Below are positions 27,105 to 49,961 of a stretch of DNA of 64,000 bases, in pieces. Each line of letters begins with the position of its first letter. Positions within the stretch are counted from its first letter, which is position 1. The position numbers and the translations under genes were made by a program. The stretch lies in NCBI RefSeq assembly GCF_014518425.1, contig NZ_JACVCU010000003.1, positions 620,001 to 684,000 on the forward strand, read 5' to 3'. This DNA comes from Terrabacter sp. MAHUQ-38 (lineage in GTDB: Bacteria; Actinomycetota; Actinomycetes; Actinomycetales; Dermatophilaceae). The notes below the pieces were generated by a model. That model searched no databases, had not been told where the DNA came from, and saw nothing but the letters and a program-made list of their open reading frames with translations.

Positions 27105-28133
27105 TCATCCGGCTCCCGAGGCGACGAAGATCGTCGAGAAGATGGCAGTGGCGGCGGCGACGTCGGGGGCCAGGCCCACCTGGAGGGCGGACGGCGTCAT
27201 GTGGGTCCACAGGTCGACGTCCTTGGAACGCCGCTCCCGCAGCTGCTGGACGAGCGCGTTCGACGTGAGCCCGGGGTCGGTCAGGGTGTAGGTCCCGCCT
27301 TTGTACGGCTGGCCCCACGTCCAGATGTCGACGGCCTGTGCGCCGTGCGAGAGGGGGATGTCGACGAATGTCTCGACGTCCGCGGCCGCCGACGCGTCGG
27401 TGCCCTGGTACTTGCCGGGGTGGGCCAGCGCCTTCCGGGCCTGCAGCCGGACCTTGTTACCCCAGCGGCGGTCGGCCTCCTGCCAGATGACCGCCATCGC
27501 AGCATTCCTCGAGGTTCCCCAGCCTGAGTAGTCGCTCCCCTTGCGCAGCCCGGGGCTGAGGTCGATGACGTCGACGCCCCCGGCGTTGATGTAGCCGTCG
27601 ACAGCGGCCAGGCTCGTCGCCGGGTCGCGGGTGCGCTCGGCCTCCGCACAGGCCGCGCGACTCGCGGACGAGGGCCCCTCCGCGTCCCACCACGAGACGC
27701 AGCCGAGCTCCGGCACGATGAAGTCGACGAGGACCTTGCGCCCGGGCAGCCGCTCGTGGATGGCCTTCGTGGTCTGCGCGAGGAAGTCACGCGCCTGCTC
27801 GGGTGACGCTCCGTCGCGGTACCCGAGCTCGTCCGCGATCTTGATGCCGTCGACCCCGGGCCGGTCGGCGAGCGCGAGGACCCGGGCGAGCACGTCCTCG
27901 TAGCGCTCCGCTCCTGCGAGCCAGGCCTTGAGCAGGTCGGTCTCGATCCAGACCCTGCCACCCTGGGCCACCACGGCGTCCACGAGAGCGGCGTACTGCG
28001 GGCGCACCTCCGCCTTCGTGCTCCCCCCGTCAGGGCCCGGGGTGCCGTTGGTGCACGACCCGCCCAGCAGCACGAGCGCCACCGCCACGCCCAGCGTGGC
28101 GGTACGGAGCCGGAGCCGTCCCTTGGCAGCCAT
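27105..28133 (-). CDS. Lipoprotein, possible TIM-barrel glycosidase-like protein
   Basis: 342 residues. The signal ends in a clear lipobox (VLLGGSC), so it is lipid-anchored on the outer face of the membrane. The mature part reads like an alpha/beta barrel: RVWIETDLLKAWL, GVDGIKIADELGYRDG, KVLVDFIVPELGC, GVDVIDLSPGLR, AVDIWTWGQPYKGG. Acidic residues end several strands, as in glycoside hydrolases, but no family signature is certain. AAGGA six bases upstream supports the ATG. Its position between flippase and priming transferase genes suggests trimming, hydrolysis or anchoring of the polymer. Confidence 0.65.
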   Translation of the reverse strand: MAAKGRLRLRTATLGVAVALVLLGGSCTNGTPGPDGGSTKAEVRPQYAALVDAVVAQGGRVWIETDLLKAWLAGAERYEDVLARVLALADRPGVDGIKIADELGYRDGASPEQARDFLAQTTKAIHERLPGRKVLVDFIVPELGCVSWWDAEGPSSASRAACAEAERTRDPATSLAAVDGYINAGGVDVIDLSPGLRKGSDYSGWGTSRNAAMAVIWQEADRRWGNKVRLQARKALAHPGKYQGTDASAAADVETFVDIPLSHGAQAVDIWTWGQPYKGGTYTLTDPGLTSNALVQQLRERRSKDVDLWTHMTPSALQVGLAPDVAAATAIFSTIFVASGAG

Positions 28134-29548
28134 CACTCGTCCTTCCGCAGCCTGTACCAGGCCCACACGAGGAGGACGTCGGTGACGAGGTAGGCGGCCG
28201 CACTCGCCCAGGCAGCGCCGTTGGACCCGTGCGCGGGTATGAGTGCGATGTCGAGGGCCAGCGTGACGACGAAACCGGCCCCGAGGATGGCCGAGTTCAG
28301 ACCGGGCCTGCCGGTGCCCAGCAGGAAGCCGGACCCCACGCCGGCAGCGGGCTCGGCGAGCAGGCCGAGCGCTATCCACGCCGCGGGCCACCGCGCTGAC
28401 TCGAACCCGTCCCCGTAGAGGAACGGGAGCACGACGAAGCCGCTCGCGGCGACGACCGCCGCCAGGATGGCCCCCAACGCGAGGAGCTTCGGCAGGCTGG
28501 GGAGCCCCTCCAGCGTTGCGATGGCTCCGGTACGTGCAGATGCGGGCGCCCGTGCAGCAGCGGTTGCGCGGTCGGCTCGGGCTCCCGGGACGTCGGTACC
28601 GTCGGGAGCCCGCTCGCCGGACACGGCAGCCTCGGCAGCAGGTACGTCCGTGCCGGCCGCGCTCCGGGCGAACTGCGGGTAGGTGACCCAGGTCAGTGCG
28701 AGCGCGGGGAGCCGCAGCAGCTCGGCCAGCTTCGAGGCGACGACGTAGACGCCGACCTGAGCCGGCCCGGCGAGTGCACCGAGGATGATCACGTCGAGGC
28801 GCAGGTTGAGCAGGCTCAGGACTCCTCCGACCTGCGCCCGCATCCCGAAGGCCGTCATCCGACGGGCCAGGGCGAGGTCGTACCGTCCGACCAGCGCGTG
28901 TCCGCGGGTCCCTCTGGCGAGACGGTGCCAGGCGAGCGCCGCGACAAGCACGTCTGCGACGAGGAGGGAGACGACGAGCAGCACGCCGCTGCGGGCGCCC
29001 GCCCACCACAGGAGCAGGTACACCGGAACGAAGGCCGCCTCCTCCGCAGCGGTCACTACGTTCGAGCCGCGCGTGTCGCCGAGGGCCTGCAGACTCGCCT
29101 TGCCGACCGCCACCGGCAGCTGGGTGGCCACCGTGACACCGGTCAGGACCACGACTGCGAACGTCGTCGTCGTCATCAGGTGCTCGTGGATGACGACGCT
29201 GAAGAGCATCCACACCGCGGTGCCGAGCAAGCCTCCGAGCACCATGAGGGTGTGCACCGTGGGCCAGAGTCGGGGGTGGTCGCCGTCGCTGCCACCGATG
29301 AAGAAGCCCATGGCACCGGGCAGACCGCAGGCGGACACGACTCCCACGACGCCCGGGAGCACTCTCATGAGGGCGAGGAGCCCGACGTCCTCGGCGCCGC
29401 CCGAGCGGGCGACGAGAACGGTGACCAGGGCTACGGACACCAGGGCGACGAGGCGGGCGCCGAGGTTGCCGAACACGTGTCGCGTGGCCGACGGGCGCCG
29501 TCTCGCTGCCCGGGCGGCGCCCGGACGCGTACGGCTCAGCGGTTCCAT
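28133..29548 (-). CDS. Wzx-like lipid-linked oligosaccharide flippase
   Basis: 471 residues, membrane protein of the polysaccharide-transporter/MATE superfamily. About 12 hydrophobic helices are suggested, starting with ATRHVFGNLGARLVALVSVALV. RLDVIILGALAGPAQVGVYVVASKLAEL is the typical central helix pair. An Ala/Arg/Asp-rich hydrophilic insert (about 300-345) separates the two halves and is unusually long. It should move undecaprenyl-linked repeat units across the membrane. The stop overlaps the start of the lipoprotein gene by one base (TGATG); the start overlaps the upstream polymerase gene by 13 bases. Confidence 0.82.
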   Translation of the reverse strand: MEPLSRTRPGAARAARRRPSATRHVFGNLGARLVALVSVALVTVLVARSGGAEDVGLLALMRVLPGVVGVVSACGLPGAMGFFIGGSDGDHPRLWPTVHTLMVLGGLLGTAVWMLFSVVIHEHLMTTTTFAVVVLTGVTVATQLPVAVGKASLQALGDTRGSNVVTAAEEAAFVPVYLLLWWAGARSGVLLVVSLLVADVLVAALAWHRLARGTRGHALVGRYDLALARRMTAFGMRAQVGGVLSLLNLRLDVIILGALAGPAQVGVYVVASKLAELLRLPALALTWVTYPQFARSAAGTDVPAAEAAVSGERAPDGTDVPGARADRATAAARAPASARTGAIATLEGLPSLPKLLALGAILAAVVAASGFVVLPFLYGDGFESARWPAAWIALGLLAEPAAGVGSGFLLGTGRPGLNSAILGAGFVVTLALDIALIPAHGSNGAAWASAAAYLVTDVLLVWAWYRLRKDE

Positions 29549-30867
29549 CGCCGCCTCGCTGACGCGACCATCCAGGCCCCCGGGTCCAGTCCTGCGACGA
29601 GCCCGAGGAACGCCCACAGGTGCCGGAAGTGCAGGACCTCGTAGAAGAACGCGGACACGACGAAGCCGCACCCGAGCGCGAGCAGGATCTCGGGGCGGGG
29701 GACGAGGTGACGCACCCAGTCCGTCTGCGGCTTCGTCCCGGTCCGTCCGAGGCGGACCGCGACGGCCGCGATGAGCACCGTCAGTCCGGCGCCGCCCAGC
29801 GCACCGCGTTCGACGATGGTGGCGAGGTAGTCGTTGTGGGCTTCCTTGACGTAGGGCGCCGCGGTTCCCTTGAGGGTCGCCTTGGTGCGCCCGGGACCCA
29901 CGCCGACGAGGTCTCCCTGCAGGTACAGGCTCAGGGTCTCGGATGCCAGCACCTGTCTGGACCCGCTGGACTCGTCCGTGCGCCCGAGCGAGTCCCGGAG
30001 CAGCTGGGCACTGTCAGCCGCGCTGGCCCGGATGTCGGAGAGACTGACGTAGGGCGCCAGCAGGGCGAGCGCGACGGCGCTCAGCGTCGCCAGGGCGGCC
30101 GCCGCGAGCACCCCTCGACGGCGCCGGACGAGCAGCAGCACGCCGACGACGCCCATCGTGCCGAGCGCGAGCGCTGCTCCGTTGGACCCCGTGAACAGGA
30201 TGGCCAGCAGCAGGATCGCGATGGTGGCGAACCGGGTGACGCCGTGACGCACGACAGACGTGGCGAGGACCAGGCCGATGATGACGAGGAAGTAGTTCGC
30301 GGCCAGGTTGGGGTCATCGAAGGTCAGGGAGGCGCGACCACCGTCCTCGGCGGTGATGCCGGCGAGCCAGTTGATGCCCGCGATCCAGCCGAAGCACATC
30401 GCCGCGGCCCAGGCGACACCGGACCACACCCAGGCGCGCAGCACCAGTTCGAGGAGCCAGCGGCGGTGTCGCACCGCGTTGGCGACGGCCGCCCCCCAGA
30501 GCAGCAGGAACAGGTCCTGGACGACGGCCAGGGCCGCGCTCTCGGCCGAGGCGAGGTACGCGGCCACCGCGCCGGCGACCATGAGCAGGCCCATCGGCAG
30601 CAGGTAGGGCACCGTGACGTCCAGGCGCTGGGCACGCAGCCACACGAAGACCCCGATGACCGCCGCGATGATGCCGACGTCGGCCAGTCCGGTGTTGCCC
30701 GGCCCGCTCGGGACCAGCATCGGCAGCAACACGAAGGACGCAACGAGGAGGTAGCCCACGCGTCGCGGCCCGGGTTCGAAGTAGGGGTGCTCGAGGGTCC
30801 TGCGGTCGAAGGGGGCCGGGATCCGGGTGACGAGGGGGGCCCGATCGACGGGACCGGTCACGGCCAC
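29536..30867 (-). CDS. Wzy/O-antigen-ligase-family polymerase
   Basis: 443 residues with about 10-12 hydrophobic helices. The diagnostic Wzy_C block KEAHNDYLATIVERGALGG (around residue 340-358), which contains the conserved His in the large periplasmic-side loop, is present, with SLYLQGDLVGVGPGR before it. Joins repeat units at the outer face of the membrane. GTG start, overlapping the kinase-like gene stop by ten bases, so it is translationally coupled with its neighbours. Confidence 0.85.
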   Translation of the reverse strand: MAVTGPVDRAPLVTRIPAPFDRRTLEHPYFEPGPRRVGYLLVASFVLLPMLVPSGPGNTGLADVGIIAAVIGVFVWLRAQRLDVTVPYLLPMGLLMVAGAVAAYLASAESAALAVVQDLFLLLWGAAVANAVRHRRWLLELVLRAWVWSGVAWAAAMCFGWIAGINWLAGITAEDGGRASLTFDDPNLAANYFLVIIGLVLATSVVRHGVTRFATIAILLLAILFTGSNGAALALGTMGVVGVLLLVRRRRGVLAAAALATLSAVALALLAPYVSLSDIRASAADSAQLLRDSLGRTDESSGSRQVLASETLSLYLQGDLVGVGPGRTKATLKGTAAPYVKEAHNDYLATIVERGALGGAGLTVLIAAVAVRLGRTGTKPQTDWVRHLVPRPEILLALGCGFVVSAFFYEVLHFRHLWAFLGLVAGLDPGAWMVASARRRWNR

Positions 30868-31919
30868 GAGAGCAGCTCCGCACCGAGCGACAGGTGGTGG
30901 TGCGCGAAGTCGCCGTGGTCACTGGTCGCGGCGATCTCCGCCAGACCGAGCAGCAGGACCTCCCGCCACAGCCCCGGGTCCCGTCCGGTGGCCTGCAGTC
31001 CGTCCGAGACGAAACGCCGCATAAGGTCCGGGAGCCAGCCCGAACCGGCGAACGCGTAGCGGACGCCTTCACCCCACGGACCGGCCACCAGGCCCCGGTG
31101 CCCGGCGACCCGACGACCGGGTGTCGTGTGGCGGTCGAGGTACAGGGCGTAGCTCAGCGCGAACCGGGCGCGGTCGCGGAGCGGGTCGTCGATGAAGGTC
31201 GCGTGCTCCCAGTCGATCACCCCGGCGACAGCACCGTCACGGCGCAGGATGTTGCCGCACCAGAAGTCGCCGTGCACCACGGACGCGGGGCGGTCCGCGG
31301 ACAGGTCGGACGCGATCGAGGTGACGTGCTCTGCGAGGGCGTGCGCCGACGCATCGGACGGCCAGCGCGCGACCAGCGCCCGCGCGATGCTGCCGGCGGT
31401 GCCGCAGCCGGTGCCGACGGCGTTGCCGATGGCGGTGGGGCTCTGGACGTGACCGGGCGGCAGGCCGGCGTCGGCGAGCGAGTCGAGCCACGTCCCAGCG
31501 CACTCGAAGTCGTGCTGGACGGCTCGGGCGCTCGAGGTGTGTCGCCACCGGTGGTAGTCGATCGACATCGGCACGCCCTCGTGCGCCGTCGTCACCATCA
31601 CCGCTCCTGCCGCGTCGTGGCGCACGTCGAGGAGCCGAGGCACCGTGCCGCCGACGAGGGTGGGGTCGCCTTCGGCCAGCTGCTGCAGCGCCCGGGCCTC
31701 GGCGGCAACGGCTGCGCGAGCCCCGGTAGTCAGCGCGACCTTGACCGCGAGAAGCGGCGTTCGCCCCTTAGGAGGGAAGGCGATGATCGTCGCCTTGGGA
31801 TTCTCGTCCTTCGACATGGCGAGCACCACGAGACGGCCCCGGTGCGGCCCCAGGTGGTCACGCAGCACAGCATCCAGCAGGTCGCCGAGTCCGGCATCCA
31901 GGACGGCAGGGTTCGTCAT
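30858..31919 (-). CDS. Aminoglycoside-phosphotransferase-like kinase
   Basis: 353 residues. Kinase-like fold: catalytic loop VVHGDFWCGNIL (about 211-222; Asp base and Asn) and the metal-binding Asp in GVIDWEHA (about 231). Relatives phosphorylate aminoglycosides, choline, homoserine or sugars. In this position, between glycosyltransferase and polymerase genes, phosphorylation of a sugar or of a decorating group is more plausible than drug resistance; relatives are seen in actinobacterial polysaccharide loci. The N-terminal lobe (AFPPKGRTPLLAVKV) carries the likely ATP-binding Lys. ATG overlaps the preceding stop (ATGA). Confidence 0.75.
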   Translation of the reverse strand: MTNPAVLDAGLGDLLDAVLRDHLGPHRGRLVVLAMSKDENPKATIIAFPPKGRTPLLAVKVALTTGARAAVAAEARALQQLAEGDPTLVGGTVPRLLDVRHDAAGAVMVTTAHEGVPMSIDYHRWRHTSSARAVQHDFECAGTWLDSLADAGLPPGHVQSPTAIGNAVGTGCGTAGSIARALVARWPSDASAHALAEHVTSIASDLSADRPASVVHGDFWCGNILRRDGAVAGVIDWEHATFIDDPLRDRARFALSYALYLDRHTTPGRRVAGHRGLVAGPWGEGVRYAFAGSGWLPDLMRRFVSDGLQATGRDPGLWREVLLLGLAEIAATSDHGDFAHHHLSLGAELLSWP

Positions 31920-32356
31920 CCTCGCCTCCCGATGACCAGGCGTCCCGGAACGACGAGGACGAGCAGGCGCGCGGCGAGACCCGCACCCGGCCGACCCGCT
32001 GCAGCCAGGGAGAGCCAGAGCCGCAGCGCGACGTCGACGGCCAGGCGTCCCCGGCTCAGGTCGGGCGGTGTGGTGGCCAGGGTCGACATGAGCCAGCGCA
32101 GGCTGGCGGGGTCGTCGTTCGCCACGAAGGTGGCGCGGTCCCAGGTCGGGAGGACGACGTACTCGGCGTCGACCACGACTCCCAGCCGGGCTGCGTGCCG
32201 GCGTAGGCGAGCCCGGCTGCCGAGGCGACGGTCGGCGAGTGCGACCGGTGCGCCCGGTGGCAGCGCCAAGACGCGGTCCGCGTCGCCCGAGCTGCCCGGC
32301 CACGCAAGGGCCGCGCTCTGCGGCAGAAGGACTCGGGCGGCGGCCGGGATGCTCAC
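31916..32356 (-). CDS. Unrecognised 146-residue protein of the polysaccharide operon
   Basis: No family recognised. It begins VSIPAAARVLLPQSAALAWPG and contains LADRRLGSRARLRRHAARLG, a mixed beta-rich centre (VVVDAEYVVLPTWDRATFVA), the segment ASLRWLMSTLATTPP and a hydrophobic, Arg-flanked C-terminal helix (LLVLVVPGRLVIG) that could touch the membrane. Both ends overlap their neighbours by four bases (GTGA and ATGA), so it is certainly translated with the GT4 and kinase-like genes and probably works with them; the kinase-like protein is the best candidate partner. Confidence 0.6.
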   Translation of the reverse strand: MSIPAAARVLLPQSAALAWPGSSGDADRVLALPPGAPVALADRRLGSRARLRRHAARLGVVVDAEYVVLPTWDRATFVANDDPASLRWLMSTLATTPPDLSRGRLAVDVALRLWLSLAAAGRPGAGLAARLLVLVVPGRLVIGRRG

Positions 32357-33528
32357 CGACGCCTCCCGGAGTCGGCGCCGACGAGGCGGCGGCGCGGTTC
32401 CCCGACCTTCAGTGAGTAGACGTCGTCGAGCACGCTCCCCCCGGTCTCGACGTCGTAGCGGCTGCCGAGGTGCTCCCGGGCGCGGGCCGCCCAGCGTTCG
32501 GCCTTGTCCGGGTGACGCAGGGTGTAGTCGAGGGCGCCCGCGAGCAGGTCGGGTCTCATCGGAGGAACGAGCAGGCCGGTCTCACCGGGGATCACGACGT
32601 CCGGCACGGCATTCACCGCGGTGGCAACGACCGGCACACCGCACTGCTGGGCCTCGACGATGACGCAGGGCAGACCCTCGTACCGGCTGGCGAGCGCGAA
32701 GACGTCGAACGCCGGCAGCAGCTCGGCGACGTCGGCGCGGTTCCCGAGTAGCCTCACCCGGTGGCTCAGGCCCATCGCGCGCACCTGTTCGGCGGTCTGC
32801 TCGGCGAGCTCGCCGTCGCCGGCCCACACGAGGACGGCGGGCACCTCCATCCGGCGGAGCGCGGCCAGCATGACCTCAGGCGCCTTCTGGAAGTCGAGCC
32901 GGCCGACGGTGCCGATGACGAACGCGGCGTCGGGCAGCGCGAGCCGCGCCCTGGCCCGCGCCCGGGACTCGGGAGTGAGGACGACGTCCGACGCGTCCAC
33001 GGCCGGGCCCACGGTGTACAGCTGCTCCGGCCGGGCCAGGCCACGACGCAGCGCCTCGACGGCGACGCCGGTGCCGACCGCGAGATACGCGTCGGTGATC
33101 CGCGAGAGTCGCCGCTCGATGCCGACGTACGCCGCGTGTACGGCGGGGTTCTGGAAGTCGTGGAAGGGGAACCCGTGGAGGGTGTGCACGATGAGGTCCA
33201 CGCCGGCACGGTGTGCGGCGAGCCGGCCCAGGGCTCCCGCCTTCGCACTGTGCGTGTGGACGATGTCGACCTCCCGCGCCCGCACGAGGGCTGTCAGACG
33301 GGTCAGTGCGCTCAGGTCCTGGCGAGGGCTGATCGGCGACACGAGCTCGGGCAGGACGACGACCTCGACGCCGTTCTCGCGGGCACGGTCGAGCAAGGGT
33401 CCGTACCGTGTGCCGGTCACCAGAACGCTCTCGTATCGCGATGGGTCGAGTGCCACGGCACCGCGCACCGCCACTCCCCCGGCGCCCGCGATGCACCTGG
33501 TGATCACATGCATGACACGTCGCCTCAT
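32353..33528 (-). CDS. GT4-family glycosyltransferase
   Basis: 391 residues, GT-B fold. N-terminal acceptor domain: HVITRCIAGAGGVAVRGAVAL (the GGA-type loop), DIVHTHSAKAGALGRLAA, VHTLHGFPFHDFQNP. C-terminal donor domain: VIGTVGRLDFQKAPEVML, and the EX7E motif in RYEGLPCVIVEAQQCGVPVV (around 275-295). Cytosolic, membrane-associated. It is the only recognisable conventional glycosyltransferase in the locus. ATG has GGAGG ten bases upstream and overlaps the HprK-like stop (ATGA). Confidence 0.92.
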   Translation of the reverse strand: MRRRVMHVITRCIAGAGGVAVRGAVALDPSRYESVLVTGTRYGPLLDRARENGVEVVVLPELVSPISPRQDLSALTRLTALVRAREVDIVHTHSAKAGALGRLAAHRAGVDLIVHTLHGFPFHDFQNPAVHAAYVGIERRLSRITDAYLAVGTGVAVEALRRGLARPEQLYTVGPAVDASDVVLTPESRARARARLALPDAAFVIGTVGRLDFQKAPEVMLAALRRMEVPAVLVWAGDGELAEQTAEQVRAMGLSHRVRLLGNRADVAELLPAFDVFALASRYEGLPCVIVEAQQCGVPVVATAVNAVPDVVIPGETGLLVPPMRPDLLAGALDYTLRHPDKAERWAARAREHLGSRYDVETGGSVLDDVYSLKVGEPRRRLVGADSGRRR

Positions 33529-34532
33529 GACTGCCACACCTCCTGCGGCTGGTTCCCGACGGGTCCCAGCAGGTCGACCACCTGGCGCAGCCCCAGCGAC
33601 GGGGTGGGCGGCAGGTGGAGCTCGAACGCGCGCGCACTGCTGGCGAGCTCGTCGCACACCGCGGCCACCGGAGGGTGCACCGGACCCAACCCGGTGCCGA
33701 GCGCGGCGGTGGCGGCGAAGGTCCAGTACCGGCGGAGCTCGCCCGCAGAGTAGGTGCCCCCGACGAGCTCACGCGCCGCTGCCGCCGGCGGGATGCTGTG
33801 CATCACGGCTTCGGCCTGCTGCCCACGCCGCAGCACGATGATCGCCGTGGGCTCCACCGACTCGGCCAACCCCGACCAGATGCCCTCTCGGCGGCCGTGC
33901 GGCATCCTGCGGCCCGTTCCCTCGTCTCGTCGCGGCGGTTCGAGCACACCGTGCACGGTCCGTCCGTCGGTGACGCAGAGGTTGTCGCTGACGGGGACCC
34001 CACCGGCTGCGTCCACGGTGGCGAGCAAGGTCGACTTGCCCACCCCGCCGGGCCCCGCGAACACGAGCGCGCTGCTCCCCACGGTGGCCGCGGACGTGTG
34101 CAGTGGTACGTGTCCCCTGACACCCGCCCACCACAGCGCGGGGTACTGGAGGACCGCAGCGCGGTGCAGGAGCACGCGGCGGTCGGGCGCGGCGAGGCCG
34201 AGGAGGTGGTGTCGCCACGTGGGACGGGGGAACACGACGACCTGGAGGTGGTCGCCCTGCGGTGAGAGCTCGAGGTCGAGCCCGCTGGAGCAGGCGTCGG
34301 CCATGACCACGGTGGTCCCGTCGGACCACGCACCACGGGTGAGGGGGCGCAGTGCGGCGCGGGGACTCGGGGGCCTGCTGTCGTGACGCGCGACCCGGAC
34401 GCGCACGTCCGGGCTCGCAGCGCCGGCCCCGGCGAGCTCCTGACCGGCGCAGGCCTCTCGGGCCAGGTCAGCCCACGGACCGTAGGCGTCGACCTCGACG
34501 ACCAGCCCGGCGCTGCGCATTCGCACCTTCAT
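33525..34532 (-). CDS. HprK-like P-loop protein of the polysaccharide operon
   Basis: 335 residues. Walker A FAGPGGVGKSTLLATVDAAG (G160-T168) followed by VPVSDNLCVTDGRTVHG has the strand order of HPr kinase/phosphorylase C-terminal domains, but the HPr-specific signature is not visible. HprK-related proteins of unknown substrate occur in several actinobacterial biosynthetic loci. Many Arg and acidic patches, no membrane segment, so probably a cytosolic kinase or regulator. ATG has GGAGG ten bases upstream and overlaps the Wzz-like stop. A regulatory phosphorylation role on an assembly enzyme is only a guess. Confidence 0.65.
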   Translation of the reverse strand: MKVRMRSAGLVVEVDAYGPWADLAREACAGQELAGAGAASPDVRVRVARHDSRPPSPRAALRPLTRGAWSDGTTVVMADACSSGLDLELSPQGDHLQVVVFPRPTWRHHLLGLAAPDRRVLLHRAAVLQYPALWWAGVRGHVPLHTSAATVGSSALVFAGPGGVGKSTLLATVDAAGGVPVSDNLCVTDGRTVHGVLEPPRRDEGTGRRMPHGRREGIWSGLAESVEPTAIIVLRRGQQAEAVMHSIPPAAAARELVGGTYSAGELRRYWTFAATAALGTGLGPVHPPVAAVCDELASSARAFELHLPPTPSLGLRQVVDLLGPVGNQPQEVWQS

Positions 34533-35962
34533 CGGTGGAACACCTCCTGCTGGCTGTCGAAGTGCTGCCGGTCGCCACCGACAGGGGCATCGGTGCCGGC
34601 ACCTGCCCCGGCGGGACGACCGGACTCGACCGTGTCGGGAGACCCGGGCCCCTCCGTGGCGTCCATCCGGCGGTCGAGAGCAGGTGTGACCTGCTCGGGC
34701 GCCTCGGCCGTCGACGCGGCGGAACGGTGGCTCTTGACGGCGTCGTGATGCGGGGCCTCGGCCCGGCCACGACGCCGGAGCCAACGTGGCCACTTGTACG
34801 TCACGACCCCGACCAGGGGCCAGCCGAGTCCGTCGAGAAGAGCTGTCACCGGTTCCAGGTCGCGCGCGAGCACCTTCAAGGGCACCAGCAGCACGGCGAC
34901 CGGCCTGCCGCTGGGGTCGACCCACTGGCCGCCGAGGACCGCGCCGGGCAGCCGGTGGGGGTTCTCGATCGGATCCGGACCGAGGCGATGTGCCAACCCC
35001 CGAGCCCACGAGTCATCGGCGTGCCTCACCGGAAGCAGGAACAGGCTCTCCGCTTCGTAGCGCTGGCCGAGAAGGGCGATGCGGTCGGCGATGAGGCCCG
35101 CCGCCTCCTTGACCCTCTCGTCCGTCAGGTCGTGTCCGGAGATGTGGCCGAGGTGCGGGGTGTCGAGGGCGTACGCGATGGCCCGCGGACGGCGAAGCCG
35201 GGGGCGTATGGCCTCTCGCGCTGCGGCGAGACCCAGCCCGAGCAGGGTGCCGATGAACAACGCGAGGACGGCCTTCTGAGCGGTGTCCTTCGGCAGCGGC
35301 GCCAGCGGTTCACGCGCAGGGTCGAGGAGCACTGCCTTGGCCCGTGACAGCTCGGCCAGGTCGAGCTCGGACAGCTGCCGCTCGAACTCCGTCTGGCTGG
35401 CCATGAGCGCACTCAGCTGTGCCTGGATGGCAAGGACGTCGCCGGGTTGCGCCCGGGACAGCTTGCCCACCAAGGCCTTTCGCTGCCTGCCGATCTCGAC
35501 CAGCTTCTGGTTGACCTTGGCGCGCCCCTCCTCGACGGTCTGCTGGTCACCGAGGTTCGAGAACTGCAGCACACTCTTCGTGATCGAAGATGCGATCGCG
35601 GCTGCTCGACGCGGCTCCGTGTCGGTCACCGCGATCTCGACCACGGACGACACGCCGACACGGCGAACGGCGATGTGCTCCTCCGCGAAGGTCGCGGGGT
35701 CGACGGCCAGGTTGACGTCGTCCAGTGCCGAGCGGACGACGGAGACGCTCGTGGCGATGCCGAGCACCCGCTCGCTCGTCGCGTCGGCCTGCACGTTCGA
35801 GGCCGCGGGGTCGCGCCCCATCTGCACCCGCGCCAGGGCCTCGTAGAGGGGTGGAGTCCTGTCCCCGATGACGATCGAGCCGACCACCGGCAGCAGCATG
35901 CAGATCAGGATCAGCAGCCAGTGGCCGCGGACCACCCGATGCACCGCTTCGTCGATCGTCAT
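34529..35962 (-). CDS. Wzz-like chain-length / polysaccharide co-polymerase protein
   Basis: 477 residues. One membrane segment at about 14-32 and another at about 226-245 enclose an extracytoplasmic domain. That domain has TATV-like repeats early and a coiled-coil stretch (about 140-200, VNQKLVEIGRQRKALVGKLSRAQ). This is the Wzz/PCP topology. The C-terminal 230 residues are cytosolic; a degenerate BY-kinase-like fold is possible but no Walker A is visible, so tyrosine kinase activity is unlikely. ATG 35962 is preferred over GTG 35971. First gene of the densely overlapping run 35962-26432. Confidence 0.8.
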   Translation of the reverse strand: MTIDEAVHRVVRGHWLLILICMLLPVVGSIVIGDRTPPLYEALARVQMGRDPAASNVQADATSERVLGIATSVSVVRSALDDVNLAVDPATFAEEHIAVRRVGVSSVVEIAVTDTEPRRAAAIASSITKSVLQFSNLGDQQTVEEGRAKVNQKLVEIGRQRKALVGKLSRAQPGDVLAIQAQLSALMASQTEFERQLSELDLAELSRAKAVLLDPAREPLAPLPKDTAQKAVLALFIGTLLGLGLAAAREAIRPRLRRPRAIAYALDTPHLGHISGHDLTDERVKEAAGLIADRIALLGQRYEAESLFLLPVRHADDSWARGLAHRLGPDPIENPHRLPGAVLGGQWVDPSGRPVAVLLVPLKVLARDLEPVTALLDGLGWPLVGVVTYKWPRWLRRRGRAEAPHHDAVKSHRSAASTAEAPEQVTPALDRRMDATEGPGSPDTVESGRPAGAGAGTDAPVGGDRQHFDSQQEVFHR

Positions 35963-40995: not shown

Positions 40996-41071
40996 GGGGT
41001 CCTCCATCTGGTGCCGCACTCGGACGAGTTCGCGACGGTCGGTCTTGTGGTTGTTGTCGGGTGAAGGAGTC

Positions 41072-41102
41072 GAGGTCCGACGGCACGACGCCGTCCGACC
41101 TC
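41072..41102 (-). terminator. Hairpin between RtcB-like and beta-helix genes
   Basis: GAGGTCCGACGGC and GCCGTCCGACCTC pair over 13 bp with one mismatch and a five-base loop, just after the RtcB-like stop. May end that transcript or attenuate it, so the secreted protein may have its own promoter in 40996-41070. Confidence 0.5.
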
Positions 41103-41112
41103 GGCGTCCGGG

Positions 41113-42573
41113 TCAGTGCAGGACGGCGAACGGGCGCATCCGCGCCACGGGGCGCACGATGCGGTGGTCGGACAGGACGCTCATGGCGGCGTTGACGCCG
41201 TTGTCGTCGAGGTGATGGGCCTGGGTCGGGGCCTCGTCGGTGTAACGGAAGCGGAGGGTGTGACGGCCCGACGGGTCCAGGACGGAACGGCCGTCCTTCT
41301 CGAACTGGTCGATGACCGTGCCTGCGCCGTGGCACGCCGAGTGCAGGCTGTCGGCGCTGCGGTCGCCGGCGACGGCGAGGTACGAGGACGTGCGGTGGGT
41401 TCCGGGGAGGAGCACGGCCTGCCCGGTGCGTGCGAACACGGTGCCCTCGGGCATCTGGCTGGCGGGGAAGGCCCGGCACGAGTTGTGCCGGTGCACGACC
41501 GCCCGTCGGCCGTCGACCTGCTCCTCGTAGATGGAGTTGTGCGGCGAGTCCACGACGAGACGTCCCGTCTCGCCGCCGAAGACCCGCTGGGCGATGGAGC
41601 GCAGCGCTCCGTACGTCGCGAGCCGGAACGCATACCCGTAGTTCATCGCCGCGGCGTTCGCGAGCATGAGCCGTTGGCCCTCGTCGCTGTCGAGCTCGAC
41701 CGGCGCGCACCCCTTGGCGAAGTACAGCCGCATCCTCTCCCGCATCTGGGCCGCGGACCGCGAGGTGGCGAGGTGGAACAGCGGCTTCTGCACGGCCATG
41801 GCGGCCCGCATGACGCGTGCCGTGTCACGCCGGCGCTGGAAGAGGTGGCCGATCTCCCCCGTGAGCACACCCCCACCGGCGTGGTACTGCAGCGTCACCT
41901 GGCCCTCGCGCACCCCGAGCAGCTCGGCCATCTCGGGATCGAGGATCTCCTCGACCTCCTGCAGCTCGACGAAGTGGTTCGACGGGCCGATGGTGCCGAA
42001 CCGGAGCCGCGCCAGCTGCCAGGTCAGCGCGGGCATCTCACGGCGCAGCCGGGTGCCGCCGCCCCACTGCTCGAGGTCGACGCGGCCACCCTCCTCGATC
42101 CGTTCCAGCTCGCGCGAGTCGACGCCCCACCGCTCGGCGGCGAACATGGCGCCGTCGACCGCGGACGCCACGACCTCGTCGCGCGTGAGCTCGCGACCCC
42201 CTCTTGTCGGGTAGGGGTAGCGCTCCTTGACCGCGCGGTAGAACTCGCCGATCGCGCGCTCTGCGGGTCGGTCGCAGTCGAGGGCGATGAGCGCCATCCC
42301 GCAGTTCACGGACGAGCTCGTGAAGGTGGGGCGGATCGTGCCAACAGTCGCGACGGCAATGCTCGACGGCATCTCCATCGCACGCTTGTGATGGAAGTCC
42401 GGCAGGACCACCGGTGGTGCTGCGAGGTCGAGCCCGACCGCCCCCAGCTCGAGCCGCCGGAGCACGGCCTCGTCGGCGGCCATGCCCGGCCCGTCGAAGA
42501 CACGTGCGGTCGGCGTGGCAGCGGCATCCGGGTGTACGCCCTCGCCGCGTGCGCTGATGACGGTCAGGTCCAC
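41113..42573 (-). CDS. Divergent RtcB-family protein in a polysaccharide locus
   Basis: 486 residues. RtcB enzymes join RNA 2',3'-cyclic phosphate and 5'-OH ends using Mn2+ and GTP. Family blocks visible: LPDFHH (57-62), NCGMALI (C91), GTIGPSNHFVE (N199, H200, E203), YHAGGG (H231), VVHRHNSCRAFP (H361), LPGTHRTSSY, and SACHGAG (H415, the guanylylated His position). Departures: the usual DIGCGM reads SVNCGM, so the metal-binding Asp is Ser88; HRKGAT reads HRHNSC; and the terminal Lys-Gly is replaced by a C-terminal His486. No tRNA-repair partner such as archease or RtcA is nearby; neighbours are CapD-like and beta-helix genes. GTG start with AGAGGA about six bases upstream. Active RNA ligase, altered substrate, or non-catalytic role are all open. 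Confidence 0.85.
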   Translation of the reverse strand: MDLTVISARGEGVHPDAAATPTARVFDGPGMAADEAVLRRLELGAVGLDLAAPPVVLPDFHHKRAMEMPSSIAVATVGTIRPTFTSSSVNCGMALIALDCDRPAERAIGEFYRAVKERYPYPTRGGRELTRDEVVASAVDGAMFAAERWGVDSRELERIEEGGRVDLEQWGGGTRLRREMPALTWQLARLRFGTIGPSNHFVELQEVEEILDPEMAELLGVREGQVTLQYHAGGGVLTGEIGHLFQRRRDTARVMRAAMAVQKPLFHLATSRSAAQMRERMRLYFAKGCAPVELDSDEGQRLMLANAAAMNYGYAFRLATYGALRSIAQRVFGGETGRLVVDSPHNSIYEEQVDGRRAVVHRHNSCRAFPASQMPEGTVFARTGQAVLLPGTHRTSSYLAVAGDRSADSLHSACHGAGTVIDQFEKDGRSVLDPSGRHTLRFRYTDEAPTQAHHLDDNGVNAAMSVLSDHRIVRPVARMRPFAVLH

Positions 42574-42655
42574 GGTGTGTCCTCTTTCCTCGTCTGGCTT
42601 GGTCGTGCGGTGATGGTGGTCCGGTGTGGTCGTGCGGTGTCGGCCGCGGTGTCGG

Positions 42656-44164
42656 TCAGAAGTCGTCCGGGTAGAGCACGGCCGACTGCCGTGGCGCCTC
42701 GTCCACGGGTCGCTCGTAGTTGCCGAGGATCGTTCCGAGCTGGCGCTTCACGTCCTCCACGGCGTTGCGCGAGGCCGTCTGGAAGAGCACCTCCAGGTGG
42801 TCCGTGAAGTCCGGGTCGGGGTCGGTCGACGAGGTGCTGAAGATGCGCGGGTGCGCGGTGGGGACCGGTTGCTCGTGCGAGGCGAAGAGAGCCTCGTGCA
42901 GCTTCTCTCCAGGGCGCAGTCCCGTGAACCGGATGTCGGGGCCGGCGAAGCCGATCTGACGCGCGTAGCTCTCGACGAGGTCGATGATCCGCACCGGCTT
43001 GCCCATGTCGAGCACGAACGTCTCCCCGCCCCGGGCCAGGTGCGCGGCCTCGAGCACGAGGCCCACTGCCTCCTCGATCGTCATGAAGAAGCGGGTGACG
43101 TCAGGATGCGTGACGGTGATCGGCTCGTCGTTGCGCATCTGCTCGGCCAGCACGGACAGCAGCGACCCGCGACTGCCCAGCACGTTCCCGAAGCGCACGG
43201 CAGCCACGATGGTCCTGCCGCCGGACGGCGCCGCCTGCTTGACCACGCGTTCGGCCAGCTGCTTGGTGGCGCCCAGGACGGACGTCGGGTCAGCAGCCTT
43301 GTCGGTCGAGATGAGGATGAACCGCTTGACGTCGGCCGCGACGGCGGCGCGCACCACGTTCAGCGTGCCGAGCACGTTGGACTTCACGCCCTCGCACGGA
43401 TGACGCTCGAGCATCGGGAGGTGCTTGAGCGCCGCCGCGTGGAAGATCACGTCAGGGCGCAGGTCCGCGATGATCTGGCTCATCCGCTCGGCGTCCCGGA
43501 TGTCGGCCACGACGACGTCGTCGGAGTCGAGCAGCCCTTCGCCGGTCAGCTCGAGCTGCAGCCGGTGCAGGTTGGACTCGTCGTGGTCGAGCATCATGAG
43601 CCGCTCCGGCCCGAAGCCGCCGACCTGCCTGCAGAGCTCACTGCCGATCGACCCGCCGGCACCCGTCACCAGCACGCGCGCTCCCCTGATGGTGCCCTCG
43701 ACCTCGGGCGAAACCACGTGCATCTCGGGTCGGCCGATGAGCGCGCCCACCTCGAGCGAGCGCAGGTCGGTGCCCGCCGCGTCGCGCTGGAGCACGGACA
43801 CGAACGAGGGCAGGTGGCGCACGCTCGCCCCGACCCGCGCTGCCGTCATGGCGAGCAGCCGGACCTGCGCGGTCGGCAGGCCCGGTATCGCCAGCAGCAC
43901 GACGTCCACGCGCTGGACCGTCGCCACGGCGAGCAGGTCAGCCAGGGTGCCGAGCACGGGAAGCCGGCGCACGACCCGCTTGTCGGTGTCGTCGTCGAGG
44001 AAACCGATGGGTGCGAGGCCGAAGTCGGGAACCTTCTGCAGGTCCCGCGCCAGGGCGCGGCCTGCCTCGCCGGCGCCGACGATGAGCGTGCGAAGGCCCT
44101 TCTGCAGCGTCGGTATGAACCCGAGCTCCGCCGGGGTCCACTGGTACTGGAGTGCTGTGGTCAC
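42656..44164 (-). CDS. FlaA1/CapD-like UDP-sugar 4,6-dehydratase, soluble form
   Basis: 502 residues. Two Rossmann units: VGAGEAGRALARDLQ (29-43) and the SDR core VLVTGAGGSIGSEL (about 162-175). The active-site block is STDKAADPTSVLGATK (about 286-301), where the dehydratase-specific residue after SV is Leu rather than the usual Met. Converts UDP-GlcNAc-type sugars to 4-keto-6-deoxy intermediates. Unlike WbpM/CapD it lacks the four N-terminal membrane helices, so it should be cytosolic. Its start overlaps the aminotransferase stop (GTGA), and the pair would yield a 4-amino-4,6-dideoxy sugar. Confidence 0.9.
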   Translation of the reverse strand: MTTALQYQWTPAELGFIPTLQKGLRTLIVGAGEAGRALARDLQKVPDFGLAPIGFLDDDTDKRVVRRLPVLGTLADLLAVATVQRVDVVLLAIPGLPTAQVRLLAMTAARVGASVRHLPSFVSVLQRDAAGTDLRSLEVGALIGRPEMHVVSPEVEGTIRGARVLVTGAGGSIGSELCRQVGGFGPERLMMLDHDESNLHRLQLELTGEGLLDSDDVVVADIRDAERMSQIIADLRPDVIFHAAALKHLPMLERHPCEGVKSNVLGTLNVVRAAVAADVKRFILISTDKAADPTSVLGATKQLAERVVKQAAPSGGRTIVAAVRFGNVLGSRGSLLSVLAEQMRNDEPITVTHPDVTRFFMTIEEAVGLVLEAAHLARGGETFVLDMGKPVRIIDLVESYARQIGFAGPDIRFTGLRPGEKLHEALFASHEQPVPTAHPRIFSTSSTDPDPDFTDHLEVLFQTASRNAVEDVKRQLGTILGNYERPVDEAPRQSAVLYPDDF

Positions 44165-45372
44165 GAGGCTTCTCCCTCCTCGGCGAGCGCGGCACACACC
44201 GCGTCCACCTCTGCGTTCGTGATGATGGCGTCCATGGGCAGGGACAACGTTCGGTCGAAGACGGCATCCACCCCGGGGAGCCCGCCCGCCGGAAGTACGC
44301 ACTGACGCTTGAACCACGTCAGGTGGTGCACCGGGATGAAGTGCACGGACGTCCCGATGCCGCGCTCGCGGAGCCGGTCGATGAGCTGGTCCCGACCGAT
44401 CCCGTACTCGGGCATCACGCGCACGGCATACAGGTGCCACGCGTGCGTCCCGGTCGCGGGGCGAGCCGGCAGGCGCAGACCCGCCACCTGGGCCAGCGCG
44501 GCGTCATAGCGGTCGGCCACGACGCGCCGGCGGGCCTGCATCTCGTCGAAGCAGCGCAGCTGCGCCCGGCCCATCGCCGCCTGCACGTCGGTCATGTTCG
44601 CCTTGATGCCGTCGACGGTCACGTCGTAGCGCCAGCCCCCACCGGGTAGATAGCGGCGCCACGCATCCTTGGACATGCCGTGCAGGCGCATCTCCCGCAC
44701 CCGGGCGGCCAGCACCGGGTCGTTGGTGGTGACCATGCCGCCCTCGCCGATCGGCAGGTTCTTCGTCGCGTAGAAGCTGAAGCACGTGGCGTGGGAGATG
44801 GTCCCCACGGGCGTCTCGCCGACCCAGGTCCCCAACGCGTGCGCGGCGTCCTCGACGACGTGCGTCAGGGCGACTCCGGCGGCCTCGGCGAGGGCCTGCA
44901 CCTCGGTCGGCAGGCCGCCGAGGTGGACGACGACGAGCGCGTCGACACCGCCGCACTCGGCGGCGGCGGCCGCGACCGTGCTAGGGCTCGGCATGCCCGT
45001 GACCTCGTCCACGTCGGCCAGCACGGCGACGTGCCCGGCGTGCGCAATGGCCGCTGCGGCGCCACAGAAGGTCATGGCCGACATCAGCACCTTGGACCGC
45101 GGTGGGAGCTGCAGGGCTCGCAGGGACAGCTCGATGGCCGCGGTGCACGAGCTCACGGCCACGGCGTCGTCGGCCCCGAGGTAGCGGGCGAACTCGGTCT
45201 CGAACTCGACGACCTGCTGCCCGGAGGTGATCCAGCCCGTGGCGAGCACGTCGAGCACGGCCTGGCCCGCCTCCGGCGAGATGTACGTGCGTGTGAAGGG
45301 CACCGTGCGAGACGGTGCCTCGGCAACGCCCTCGGCGGATGCCGTCGGTGCCCGGCGGGCCAGCTCAACCAT
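44161..45372 (-). CDS. DegT/DnrJ/EryC1/StrS-family sugar aminotransferase
   Basis: 403 residues, fold type I PLP enzyme. Schiff-base Lys204 in FSFYATKNLPIGEGG, PLP-ring Asp175 in VEDAAHALG, and the N-terminal ATGWITSGQQVVEFETEFARYLG typical of nucleotide-sugar aminotransferases. It probably aminates the 4-keto sugar made by the neighbouring dehydratase; relatives include PglE, PseC and PerA. The start overlaps the upstream regulator stop by eight bases, tying sugar synthesis to the regulatory genes. Confidence 0.92.
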   Translation of the reverse strand: MVELARRAPTASAEGVAEAPSRTVPFTRTYISPEAGQAVLDVLATGWITSGQQVVEFETEFARYLGADDAVAVSSCTAAIELSLRALQLPPRSKVLMSAMTFCGAAAAIAHAGHVAVLADVDEVTGMPSPSTVAAAAAECGGVDALVVVHLGGLPTEVQALAEAAGVALTHVVEDAAHALGTWVGETPVGTISHATCFSFYATKNLPIGEGGMVTTNDPVLAARVREMRLHGMSKDAWRRYLPGGGWRYDVTVDGIKANMTDVQAAMGRAQLRCFDEMQARRRVVADRYDAALAQVAGLRLPARPATGTHAWHLYAVRVMPEYGIGRDQLIDRLRERGIGTSVHFIPVHHLTWFKRQCVLPAGGLPGVDAVFDRTLSLPMDAIITNAEVDAVCAALAEEGEAS

Positions 45373-46012
45373 GGGTCTTCTCCAGACCCGCGCTCAACGC
45401 GATCGCGGCCGGGGCGGAACGGACGTGAAGCTTGCGGAGGATGCGCCGCACGTAGGTGCGCACGGTGTTGTCGGAGAGATCCAGGGCCTCGCCCACCTGG
45501 CGTCGACTCATGCCGGCCGCGAGACAGGACAACACGTCCGACTCGCGCCGGGTCAGCGGGTGGGTGGCGAGGGTGGCTGCCCGGCCCTGGCCATCGAGGC
45601 GTGACACGAGGAGCGCTCGCAACGGCTCGGTCGGGTAGTACGACTCGCCCCTTCCCACGTCGCGCACAGCGGCCAGGAGCTCGTTCAGCCCGTCCTGCCG
45701 GGTGAGCCACCCCCTGGCGCCGGACGCGATGGCGTCGAGGAGCAGGGGCTCGTCGTCGGCATCCGCGATGAGGACGATCCCGAGCAGCGGGTGGGCCGCC
45801 GACAGGTCGAGCAGCCGCGCCATGGGCGTGTTCTCGTCGAGTCCCAGCATGAGGACGTCACAGGCACCGAAGAGGCCGCACTCGGCGGCGAGGTCGAGGG
45901 AAGGGGCCGTCCCCACCACGACGAGGTCGGTGGCCTCAGAGAGGCAGCGGCACAGCGCGTCGACGAAACCCTGTCTGCTGTCGACCATCCCGACGCGCGT
46001 CGCACTGTCCAT
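45365..46012 (-). CDS. LuxR-type regulator with degenerate receiver domain
   Basis: 215 residues. The C-terminal LuxR HTH (about 150-210) is intact: LTRRESDVLSCLAAGMSRRQVGEALD, then LSDNTVRTYVRRILRKL. The N-terminal half has the receiver fold but lacks its chemistry: the phosphorylated Asp is Gly57 (VLMLGLDEN), the acidic pair is reduced to VDS (10-12), and the conserved Lys is Arg in WLTRQDG. It therefore cannot be phosphorylated in the usual way and may respond to a ligand or to dimer partners. It is the first gene of the aminotransferase-CapD unit and a likely local regulator of the polysaccharide genes. Confidence 0.85.
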   Translation of the reverse strand: MDSATRVGMVDSRQGFVDALCRCLSEATDLVVVGTAPSLDLAAECGLFGACDVLMLGLDENTPMARLLDLSAAHPLLGIVLIADADDEPLLLDAIASGARGWLTRQDGLNELLAAVRDVGRGESYYPTEPLRALLVSRLDGQGRAATLATHPLTRRESDVLSCLAAGMSRRQVGEALDLSDNTVRTYVRRILRKLHVRSAPAAIALSAGLEKTHG

Positions 46013-46069
46013 GTGAAGCAGCGTGCCGCCTGTGCTGCGTGAGCGAACCCACCGCGCGCGGGACCTCGT

Positions 46070-46080
46070 AGTACGTCAAA
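46070..46080 (-). promoter_or_regulatory. TTTGACGTACT motif upstream of the pseudo-receiver gene
   Basis: Same 11-mer as at 36045-36055. Here it overlaps the stop of the upstream response regulator gene and lies about 60 bases before the pseudo-receiver start, the region where its promoter should be. Confidence 0.35.
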
Positions 46081-46735
46081 AGGATGACGCCCGGACGTGG
46101 GCAGGCCATGCCACGTCCTTGGCGTGCGCTGCCACGAGCGCAGACGCCTGGAGCCGCGAGTGGACCCCGAGCTTGGCCAGCACGTTCTGCACGTGGGTGC
46201 GGGCCGTGCTCGGCCGCACCTGGAGGGCCGCCGCGATCTGGATCGTGCTCAGTCCGTCCACGACACAGCGCAGGACCTGCCATTCACGGTCGGTGAGGAA
46301 GGTCAGCATCCACAGCTGGTCGTCGCCGCGGTCACGCGCCCTGAGGGCGCTCTGGAGCAGGGTCGGCTCGATGGCGAGGTGACCTCTGGCCGCCATGGCG
46401 ATCGCTTCGAGCAGGTCGCTCAGCGGCCGGTCCTTGCGCATGAATCCCGCCGCGCCGGCGGCGATCGCCCGGGCGACCATCTGGACGGACGCGTCGCCCG
46501 AGAACATCACGACCTTCGTCTCACTGGAGGCCGCCCTGATGTCCGCGATCACGTCGATGCCGGACCCCTCCGGAAAGCTGGCGTCGAGCAGGCACACATG
46601 CGGCTGGTGCGTACGCGCGGCCTCGACCGCTTCCTCGGGGCAGTGCGCCTTCACGACGTCGTGCCCCTCGCCGCCGAGTGCCATGCACAGGGCGTCGAGG
46701 ATCAGCGCGTGGTCATCGCAGACGACCAGTCTCAT
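46076..46735 (-). CDS. NarL/LuxR-type response regulator
   Basis: 219 residues. Intact receiver: acidic pair in VVCDDHALIL (7-8), phospho-acceptor Asp51 in VCLLDASFPEG, Lys in GFMRKDRPL. C-terminal LuxR HTH (about 150-210): LTDREWQVLRCVVDGLSTIQIAAALQ, then RPSTARTHVQNVLAKLG. It follows the histidine kinase gene by 11 bases, forming a two-component pair. Target sites are unknown; the shared TTTGACGTACT motif is one candidate. Confidence 0.9.
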   Translation of the reverse strand: MRLVVCDDHALILDALCMALGGEGHDVVKAHCPEEAVEAARTHQPHVCLLDASFPEGSGIDVIADIRAASSETKVVMFSGDASVQMVARAIAAGAAGFMRKDRPLSDLLEAIAMAARGHLAIEPTLLQSALRARDRGDDQLWMLTFLTDREWQVLRCVVDGLSTIQIAAALQVRPSTARTHVQNVLAKLGVHSRLQASALVAAHAKDVAWPAHVRASSF

Positions 46736-46746
46736 GACGTGCCCAC

Positions 46747-47373
46747 TCACGACACTGCGCGGTGGGTGCTGCTCGTGGGCAGCGCGATCTCGGCGACGGC
46801 TCCGCCGCCCTCGGCTGCCGCCAGGCGGAAGGCGCCGTTGCACGCAGCGACCATGGCCCGCACGGTCGTGAGCCCGAGCGACGTCCGGTGCCCGATGCGG
46901 CCGAGGCCGGGTCCGTCGTCCTGCACCGTGACGTGCATGGTGGTTCCGCGATCCGCCACGGTGACCACCACGTGCCCGTCCGGTCCGGCCGCGCGAACCG
47001 CGTTGTCCACCAAGCACCCGAGGGCCCTGCTCAGGGCGACGGGCCGAGCCCACACCCAGCCTTCGCCCTGTGCGGTGACCTCGATGCTCGCGGTCGTCGT
47101 GGACCGCGCCCGCGCCGCCACGCACTCTGCGATCTCACGAGCCTCGACCCACTGCAGCCAGTCGTTCGCTGCATCGTCGAGGCTCGAGTCGACCAGCTGT
47201 GCCAACCACTGCGCCTGCTCACTGATGGCGTGCAGCTTGCCGTCCACGTCACCCTTGGGCGACGACGACAGGAGCATGATGGCCGCCAGCGGCTCCCGCA
47301 GGTCGTGGAACAGCGCGCGGATGGTGTCGATCTCCCGGTTCCCCCCAGGCACATCTCGACTGTGCTCGTACAT
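46747..47373 (-). CDS. Soluble histidine kinase without sensor domain
   Basis: 208 residues. H box FHDLREPLAAIMLL (His23), N box CLVDNAVRAAGPDG and G boxes VQDDGPGLGRIGHRTSLGLTTVRAM are all present, so it can bind ATP and phosphorylate. It has no membrane segment, PAS or GAF domain, and only about 20 residues precede the H box. The signal must come from a partner protein or the cytosol. GGAAGG eight bases upstream supports the ATG. First gene of the regulatory end of the polysaccharide locus. Confidence 0.85.
   Translation of the reverse strand: MYEHSRDVPGGNREIDTIRALFHDLREPLAAIMLLSSSPKGDVDGKLHAISEQAQWLAQLVDSSLDDAANDWLQWVEAREIAECVAARARSTTTASIEVTAQGEGWVWARPVALSRALGCLVDNAVRAAGPDGHVVVTVADRGTTMHVTVQDDGPGLGRIGHRTSLGLTTVRAMVAACNGAFRLAAAEGGGAVAEIALPTSSTHRAVS

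Positions 47374-47738: not shown

Positions 47739-49961
<2,223 letters not shown>

Follow-up and report, generated by a model that had tools for sequence, protein, structure and literature searches.

An RtcB-like protein with an altered active site in actinobacterial exopolysaccharide loci suggests reuse of an RNA ligase fold

Introduction

To our knowledge, RtcB has been described solely as acting on the ends of nucleic acids, and we know of no substrate class outside nucleic acids for its fold. The family models NF007153 and TIGR03073 describe another RtcB offshoot, which we take to be the PrfH-linked RtcB paralogue. Nor are we aware of any described Wzx/Wzy-type locus that holds an RtcB homologue; in the open-access literature, as far as titles and abstracts disclose, no polysaccharide-linked RtcB subfamily of the kind reported here was found.

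Published work on the RtcB active site follows a two-metal scheme (PMC10630183). In human RTCB, metal A is held by C122, H259 and H353 and metal B by D119, C122 and H227, while the base is bound by Glu230, Ser409 and Lys504 (PMC8668186). P. horikoshii RtcB on its own is inactivated by each of the substitutions D65A, D95A, N202A, H203A, F204A, E206A, H404A and K480A (PMC3973293). According to the same source, Archease restores GMP transfer to the RNA 3'-phosphate by the D95A variant and does not restore ligation, so that loss of D95 can separate nucleotidyl transfer from sealing. The equivalent human variant, D119A, was guanylylated only weakly and did not ligate even when Archease was present (PMC10944509). 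R237 of Tb-RtcB was proposed as an RNA contact, and the same report describes the hydrolysis of 2',3'-cyclic phosphates by RtcB (PMC12135372); DNA 3' capping is reported as a further activity (PMC4499129). By its numbering, R237 would correspond to R238 here. Residue numbers below are those of P. horikoshii RtcB unless they refer to the window protein.

The protein described in this work shares with the RtcB RNA ligases (PF01139; P. horikoshii, PDB 1uc2, and others) nearly the whole domain, the nucleophilic histidine, the metal-A ligands, His203, Phe204, Glu206 and Ser385. It belongs to a clade that differs from canonical RtcB in the absence of Asp95, Lys480, Lys351, Arg238 and Arg408, in its genomic setting and in a long stem branch. 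Its locus has in common with Wzx/Wzy-dependent exopolysaccharide loci the initiating transferase, a GT4 glycosyltransferase, a flippase-like protein, a Wzy_C protein, a Wzz-like protein, a UDP-sugar dehydratase and an aminotransferase. A clade that keeps the nucleophile and most of the nucleotide pocket in such a locus would show the fold recruited for sugar chemistry, and our analysis suggests that an RNA ligase fold has been reused for the making of surface polysaccharide.

Results and Discussion

An RtcB homologue within a Wzx/Wzy-type locus

The window, by which we mean the whole stretch of 64,000 nucleotides analysed, carries at 41113-42573 on the minus strand a gene with a GTG start that encodes 486 amino acids. 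The sole Pfam match of the protein is RtcB (PF01139; E 3.4e-48, 165.4 bits against a cut-off of 27, profile positions 16-424 of 426), and its best solved relative in a search of the PDB is P. horikoshii RtcB (E 1.3e-33). The preliminary description of this DNA had named an RtcB homologue here without giving its strand, and the open reading frame is real on both grounds. A chance reading frame is excluded by the Pfam match and the homologues, though a plus-strand frame of 563 amino acids overlaps the gene. The two models of the RtcB paralogue recognise the protein at scores far under their cut-offs (NF007153: E 4e-22, 79 bits against 407; TIGR03073: E 4e-14, 52 bits against 272), and no release factor was found among the 16 locus proteins scanned.

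The neighbours are those first described, a UDP-sugar 4,6-dehydratase on one side and a beta-helix/PKD protein, which we would guess to be exported, on the other (Table 1; gene calls are from our own simple caller). An initiating transferase, a flippase, a Wzy polymerase and a glycosyltransferase, all by Pfam, stand together in this locus, as is expected of the Wzx/Wzy type. A Pfam/NCBIfam scan of the 16 locus proteins of the window, four of them with no Pfam match, found no other nucleotidyltransferase.

Table 1. Locus genes and aligned active-site residues in the window. Window residue numbers come first; their P. horikoshii equivalents follow.
Feature	Position	Strand	Basis
Initiating phosphoglycosyl transferase (Bac_transf)	26432..27100	-	Pfam 173 bits
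Conserved locus protein, lipoprotein-like start	27105..28133	-	no family match
Wzx-type flippase	28133..29476	-	Polysacc_synt_3 34.1 bits
Wzy-type polymerase / O-antigen ligase-like	29536..30867	-	Wzy_C 51.4 bits
APH-fold kinase-like protein, HGD...N and DWE motifs	30858..31919	-	Pfam APH 48.6 bits; 14-row alignment
Small protein, read as methyltransferase remnant	31916..32176	-	own gene call, start probably too late (relatives 137-156 aa); no Pfam match
GT4 glycosyltransferase	32353..33513	-	Glycos_transf_1 117 bits
HprK-related P-loop protein	33525..34532	-	TIGR04352 E 3e-4, weak; no Pfam match
Wzz-like chain-length determinant, weak	34529..35962	-	TIGR03017 E 1.9e-7, 30 bits against cut-off 423; no Pfam match
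Right-handed beta-helix and PKD-repeat protein, 1591 aa	36232..41007	-	Pfam on ORF to 41019; start from own gene caller
His415 = guanylylated His404, kept	41329..41331	-	
His363 for Lys351 (HRKGAT block now HRHNSC)	41485..41487	-	
His345 = His329, metal-A ligand, kept	41539..41541	-	
His231 = His234, metal-A ligand, kept	41881..41883	-	
His200 = His203, kept	41974..41976	-	
Cys91 = Cys98, metal ligand, kept in all readable members	42301..42303	-	
Ser88 for metal-B ligand Asp95	42310..42312	-	alignment to P. horikoshii RtcB
UDP-HexNAc 4,6-dehydratase, PseB/CapD-like	42656..44164	-	Polysacc_synt_2 334 bits (longer ORF); TIGR03589 185 bits, under cut-off
DegT/PseC-like aminotransferase	44161..45372	-	Pfam 330 bits; TIGR03588 283 bits, under cut-off
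LuxR-type regulator	45365..46012	-	GerE 58 bits
LuxR-type response regulator	46076..46735	-	Response_reg and GerE on longer ORF 46076-47125; start from own caller
Histidine kinase-like protein	46747..47373	-	HATPase_c 45 bits

A separate clade of actinobacterial proteins

Relatives of the window protein form an RtcB-like clade from 18 scattered actinobacterial genomes in total, with Terrabacter, Intrasporangium, Humibacillus and Nostocoides named among the carriers. The gene occurs in 12 of 186 genomes of the window's family (8 of 53 genera), and in 2 of 396, 3 of 394 and 4 of 396 genomes of the order, class and phylum samples, the window's own genome being counted each time. Carriers from other families are G588, G598, G609, G994 and G1028; the order and class of G588 and the class of G598 are small groups of 3, 3 and 5 genomes. 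A scan of genome contigs, which detects close relatives only, returned 8 loci. These sets are samples, all from within the phylum, and not the whole tree. Scoring per genome extended to at most 4 candidates for the order, phylum and class samples; within the family the limit was 8 for the protein search and 11 for the profile searches. Queries with the window protein gave clade matches of at least 539.7 bits, against less than 170 bits between the clade and canonical RtcB models or chains; the search thresholds were 1e-50 to 1e-60, at which anything much weaker than the clade matches would escape. Loci L003-L009 were equated from coordinates with genomes G173, G099, G175, G018, G045, G039 and G101, and L033, which shares a contig with L009, was left out of the genome counts.

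A maximum-likelihood tree of 35 rows separates the 18 clade members from 17 canonical RtcBs, drawn from archaea, several bacterial phyla and phages, by one branch with support 100/100. This stem is very long (2.95 changes per column); the tree is rooted at its midpoint, and long branches also occur in three of the canonical rows. The RtcB of a Haloarcula plasmid was left out because it seemed incomplete: its match begins at query residue 155, and the residue at D65 is unusual. The separate subfamily that the preliminary description had envisaged is thus borne out as one clade with residues of its own in 18 genomes. A recent phage or plasmid gene is ruled out: no close copy turned up in the viral contigs scanned, the 6 phage records have at most 26% identity to the protein, and plasmid relatives have at most 31% among the matches listed (15 of 22 records). 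A blastn search against E. coli genomes gave no match.

Substitutions in the active site

The motifs noted at the outset, SVNCGM (within SSSVNCGM), HRHNSC and a C-terminal histidine, are all found in the window protein. Alignment to P. horikoshii RtcB places its Ser88 at the metal-binding D95, as had been claimed, and sets His415, the residue singled out beforehand for guanylylation, against the guanylylated H404; R408 is matched by T419. The exchange of the terminal lysine for histidine holds for this protein and fails as a trait of the clade, in which Lys480 is lost throughout in favor of His (10), Thr (5) or Asn (3).

Every readable row of the clade keeps C98, H203, F204, E206, H234, H329, S385 and H404. 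By alignment, the residue H404 is present in all 18 members, as are the metal-A ligands H234 and H329; C98 stands in 17 of 17 readable rows, one contig being cut before it. D65 is kept in 16 of 17 readable rows (L079 differs, being a draft contig in which the frame is broken at this point) and N202 in 16 of 18. Among the guanine contacts, F204, E206 and S385 are kept and K480 is lost. D95, in contrast, is replaced in 17 of 17 readable rows (Ser in 13, Ala in 4; one row is cut), K351 in 18 of 18 (His in 16, Tyr in 2) and R408 in 18 of 18 (Thr in 14, Ser in 4), while R238 is glycine in all 18. G352 and Y451 are also lost throughout the clade, the alignment being unsure at Y451. In the 17 canonical RtcBs, D95, K351, R408 and Y451 are invariant, and R238 is leucine in 2.

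The canonical set has 42 invariant columns, of which the clade keeps 17 wholly and 8 mostly and has lost 17; stated otherwise, for 25 of the 42 the residue is retained by at least 75% of the clade. Columns named in the literature as catalytic or metal-binding, D95 included, are kept in 9 of 10 cases, against 16 of 32 for the others (Fisher p 0.03); the p value becomes 0.09 when K480 is added as a loss. The conservation thus appears biased to the catalytic core to a modest degree.

The locus is shared across genomes

The RtcB-like gene lies amid one type of Wzx/Wzy exopolysaccharide locus in 17 of the 18 genomes, which ties it to glycan loci instead of leaving its homologues scattered. The eighteenth, G1028, offers a contig of 4.8 kb with one neighbour, a beta-helix protein, which alone is no proof of the locus. 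In G994 the kinase, Wzx/Wzy-like and beta-helix genes lie beside the RtcB-like gene, the last of these on the other strand. Neighbourhood clustering covered 17 loci from 16 genomes (L009 and L033 come from one contig). The partners there are the APH-fold kinase (16 loci), GT4 and the PseC-like aminotransferase (15 each), the dehydratase, the HprK-like and the Wzx/Wzy-like proteins (13 each), the Wzz-like protein (12), the initiating transferase and the methyltransferase-like remnant (10 each) and the beta-helix/PKD protein (5); some of the missing partners reflect the ends of contigs or stretches. Gene order varies between near and divergent loci, and the RtcB-like gene stays. It is adjacent to the kinase, or one small gene apart, in four loci (L010, L029, L031 and L032), and five genes separate the two in the window.

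Of the 186 family genomes, a profile of the kinase hits 12, and these are precisely the 12 with the RtcB-like gene. The profile of the HprK-like protein found 11 of these 12 and no other of the 186, the one missed, G175, being a genome of 74% completeness. With these two profiles, the locus was not seen in the family without the RtcB-like gene. The shared presence of the three genes therefore indicates that the locus is passed on as a whole, and the joint presence of the RtcB-like gene and the kinase may reflect only that. The 14-row kinase alignment lacks L005, whose kinase is on another contig, and L004, whose kinase is cut by the end of the stretch; alignment A3 has 11 rows and lacks L027 and L033.

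Purifying selection and a variable block in the locus

The window was set against other loci in eight comparisons; among the locus proteins, the RtcB-like one had the highest identity in six, was tied in one and came second to the dehydratase in one. Between L031 and L032 the RtcB-like protein is 95% identical, against 97% for GT4. The dN/dS of the gene is 0.10-0.21 in five pairs (own Nei-Gojobori script); it is under purifying selection, and a decaying paralogue is rejected on these values. For the kinase, dN/dS is two to four times as high in three of the four pairs measured for both genes.

The loci of the congeners G171 and G174 are mosaic. The regulators, aminotransferase, dehydratase and RtcB-like gene are 85-98% identical, mostly at least 92%. 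Identity drops to 61-89% over approximately L026:10500-19200 (compared with L027), which spans the Wzz-like, HprK-like, GT4, methyltransferase-like, kinase and Wzx/Wzy-like genes, and returns to 93-96% beyond. To judge from these identities, this segment resembles the variable, serotype-like block of a capsule-type locus. The constant part contains the RtcB-like gene along with the sugar-nucleotide enzymes (dehydratase and aminotransferase), and the kinase lies in the variable block.

Canonical RtcB, Archease and defense families

A check for a canonical RtcB elsewhere in the host genome had been called for, and there is one, on another contig (G000:C11:281976-283091, 398 bits), with the motifs VGVDIGCGM, TRKGAIR and SHGAGR and the ending VKG. 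Across the 15 of 18 carrier genomes covered (all save that of L010, G994 and G1028), a canonical RtcB was found in 8, in two pieces in G609, and not found in 7. A stand-in for a missing canonical RtcB is thereby rejected: 8 of the 15 have both, and among the other 7 the stated completeness is 100% for 5. Archease, a partner of only some RtcBs, was found in none of the 15 genomes, the host's included, a result that says little, as the control search was blank in E. coli too. PADLOC assigned no family to the RtcB-like protein, the kinase or the HprK-like protein, and a defense system known to PADLOC is rejected for the three.

Proposed function

We tentatively propose as the most economical reading, at something short of even confidence, that the RtcB-like protein is a built-in enzyme of the Wzx/Wzy-type exopolysaccharide pathway, an RtcB-derived nucleotidyltransferase that has a phosphorylated sugar or glycan as its substrate and has lost RNA ligation. 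Activity is suggested by the retained nucleophile and metal-A site and a largely intact nucleotide pocket; RNA ligation would be lost because D95 and an RNA contact are gone; and the locus is the reason for a role in polysaccharide, with a sugar or glycan phosphate as the presumed substrate. In this mechanism, His415 would attack the alpha phosphate of an NTP, aided by one metal held by Cys91, His231 and His345, to give an enzyme-NMP. The NMP would then pass to a phosphate carried by a sugar or by a lipid-linked glycan intermediate, and the product would be of the nucleotide-diphospho-sugar type. Such a transfer would be RtcB's own second step, in which NMP goes onto a 3'-phosphate, with sealing lost along with Asp95 and the RNA-contact arginine. 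The kinase of the locus would presumably make the phosphate acceptor. A tight hand-over from kinase to RtcB-like protein is weakened, however, by the place of the kinase in the variable block, by its higher dN/dS and by the five genes between the two in the window. With the sugar-1-phosphate nucleotidyltransferases (GDP- and UDP-sugar pyrophosphorylases) only the proposed type of reaction, NMP onto a phosphate, would be common; the family is unrelated.

The choice of NTP is not fixed by the sequence because the guanine-contacting Lys480 is gone. His415 may not be nucleotidylated at all, since human D119A is guanylylated only weakly (PMC10944509) and a search of 15 genomes for Archease found it in none. 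The fuller claim, that this is a histidine-nucleotidylated RtcB-family transferase activating phosphorylated sugars or glycans in exopolysaccharide assembly, is put forward with a little more reserve. As far as is known, it would be the first case in which the RtcB fold serves substrates of a class other than nucleic acids. If so, labelling members of this clade as RNA ligases from the RtcB domain alone could be wrong, and the clade also offers a natural test of the purpose of Asp95.

Losses of D95 and K480 impair known RtcB enzymes, and for this reason two other readings keep some weight. The protein could be a single-metal hydrolase or lyase, in which a metal held by Cys, His and His serves to cleave sugar or glycan phosphate esters, cyclic or otherwise, and His415 acts as general acid or base. 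The retention of the metal-A ligands, H203, D65 and H404 together with the loss of the metal-B aspartate and the guanine-contacting lysine would suit such an enzyme, as would the cyclic phosphate hydrolysis by RtcB itself described in PMC12135372; yet the guanine-contacting Phe204 and Glu206 are invariant, which a hydrolase that uses no nucleotide would not need, and we hold this reading to be somewhat unlikely. A catalytically dead scaffold or sensor, which would bind nucleotide or metal and tune the polysaccharide machinery without chemistry, is in our estimate unlikely. It would account for the loss of D95, without which neither P. horikoshii RtcB nor human RTCB ligates in the papers cited above, and for the position of the gene in the constant part of the locus. 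It is difficult to reconcile with a nucleophilic histidine and a full set of metal-A ligands that are invariant in members down to 53% identity with the window protein, and with the standing of the RtcB-like protein as usually the best conserved of the locus, which is unusual for a dead enzyme.

The same loss of D95 bears on a ligase in the wide sense, which would join a glycan or lipid-linked phosphate to the hydroxyl of another unit in a phosphodiester bridge, by the three-step logic of RtcB on a non-RNA substrate. In its favor are the nucleophile, the metal-A site and a largely preserved nucleotide pocket, and also the kinase-like protein of the locus, but in the papers cited above substitutions at D95 (D119) abolish sealing in both the P. 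horikoshii and the human enzyme, and we find it decidedly improbable. Least probable of all is a role at the RNA level, whether as a regulator or as a ligase, with locus transcripts or tRNA as the target. The preliminary description had raised a regulator of the locus RNA, for which the fold family speaks and nothing else; R238, by numbering the RNA contact proposed in PMC12135372, is glycine in 18 of 18 members, and K351 and R408, invariant in the 17 canonical RtcBs, are replaced. At Rfam gathering thresholds the window has one element only, a tRNA-Thr at 6.4 kb, approximately 35 kb from the RtcB-like gene, so that none lies near the locus. The presence of the gene follows the polysaccharide locus, and the distribution of canonical RtcB among the carriers shows that the protein is not simply its substitute.

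Other features of the locus

The small methyltransferase-like protein adjoins the APH-fold kinase and is seemingly fused to it in L029 (L029:8010-9287); longer versions are found at L028:14280-14906 and L030:6990-7619. The pair may faintly resemble WbdD, a kinase-methyltransferase chain terminator. A promoter and terminator scan of 40900-47800 gave one site resembling each, with 0.3 expected for promoters and 1.0 for terminators. The two LuxR-type regulators and the histidine kinase (45365-47373) head the locus in near relatives and were not seen in the stretches L028-L032. At 24883-26466 lies what appears by eye to be an enzyme of the metallo-beta-lactamase fold with a Rieske-type tail, which has cluster members in two other loci.
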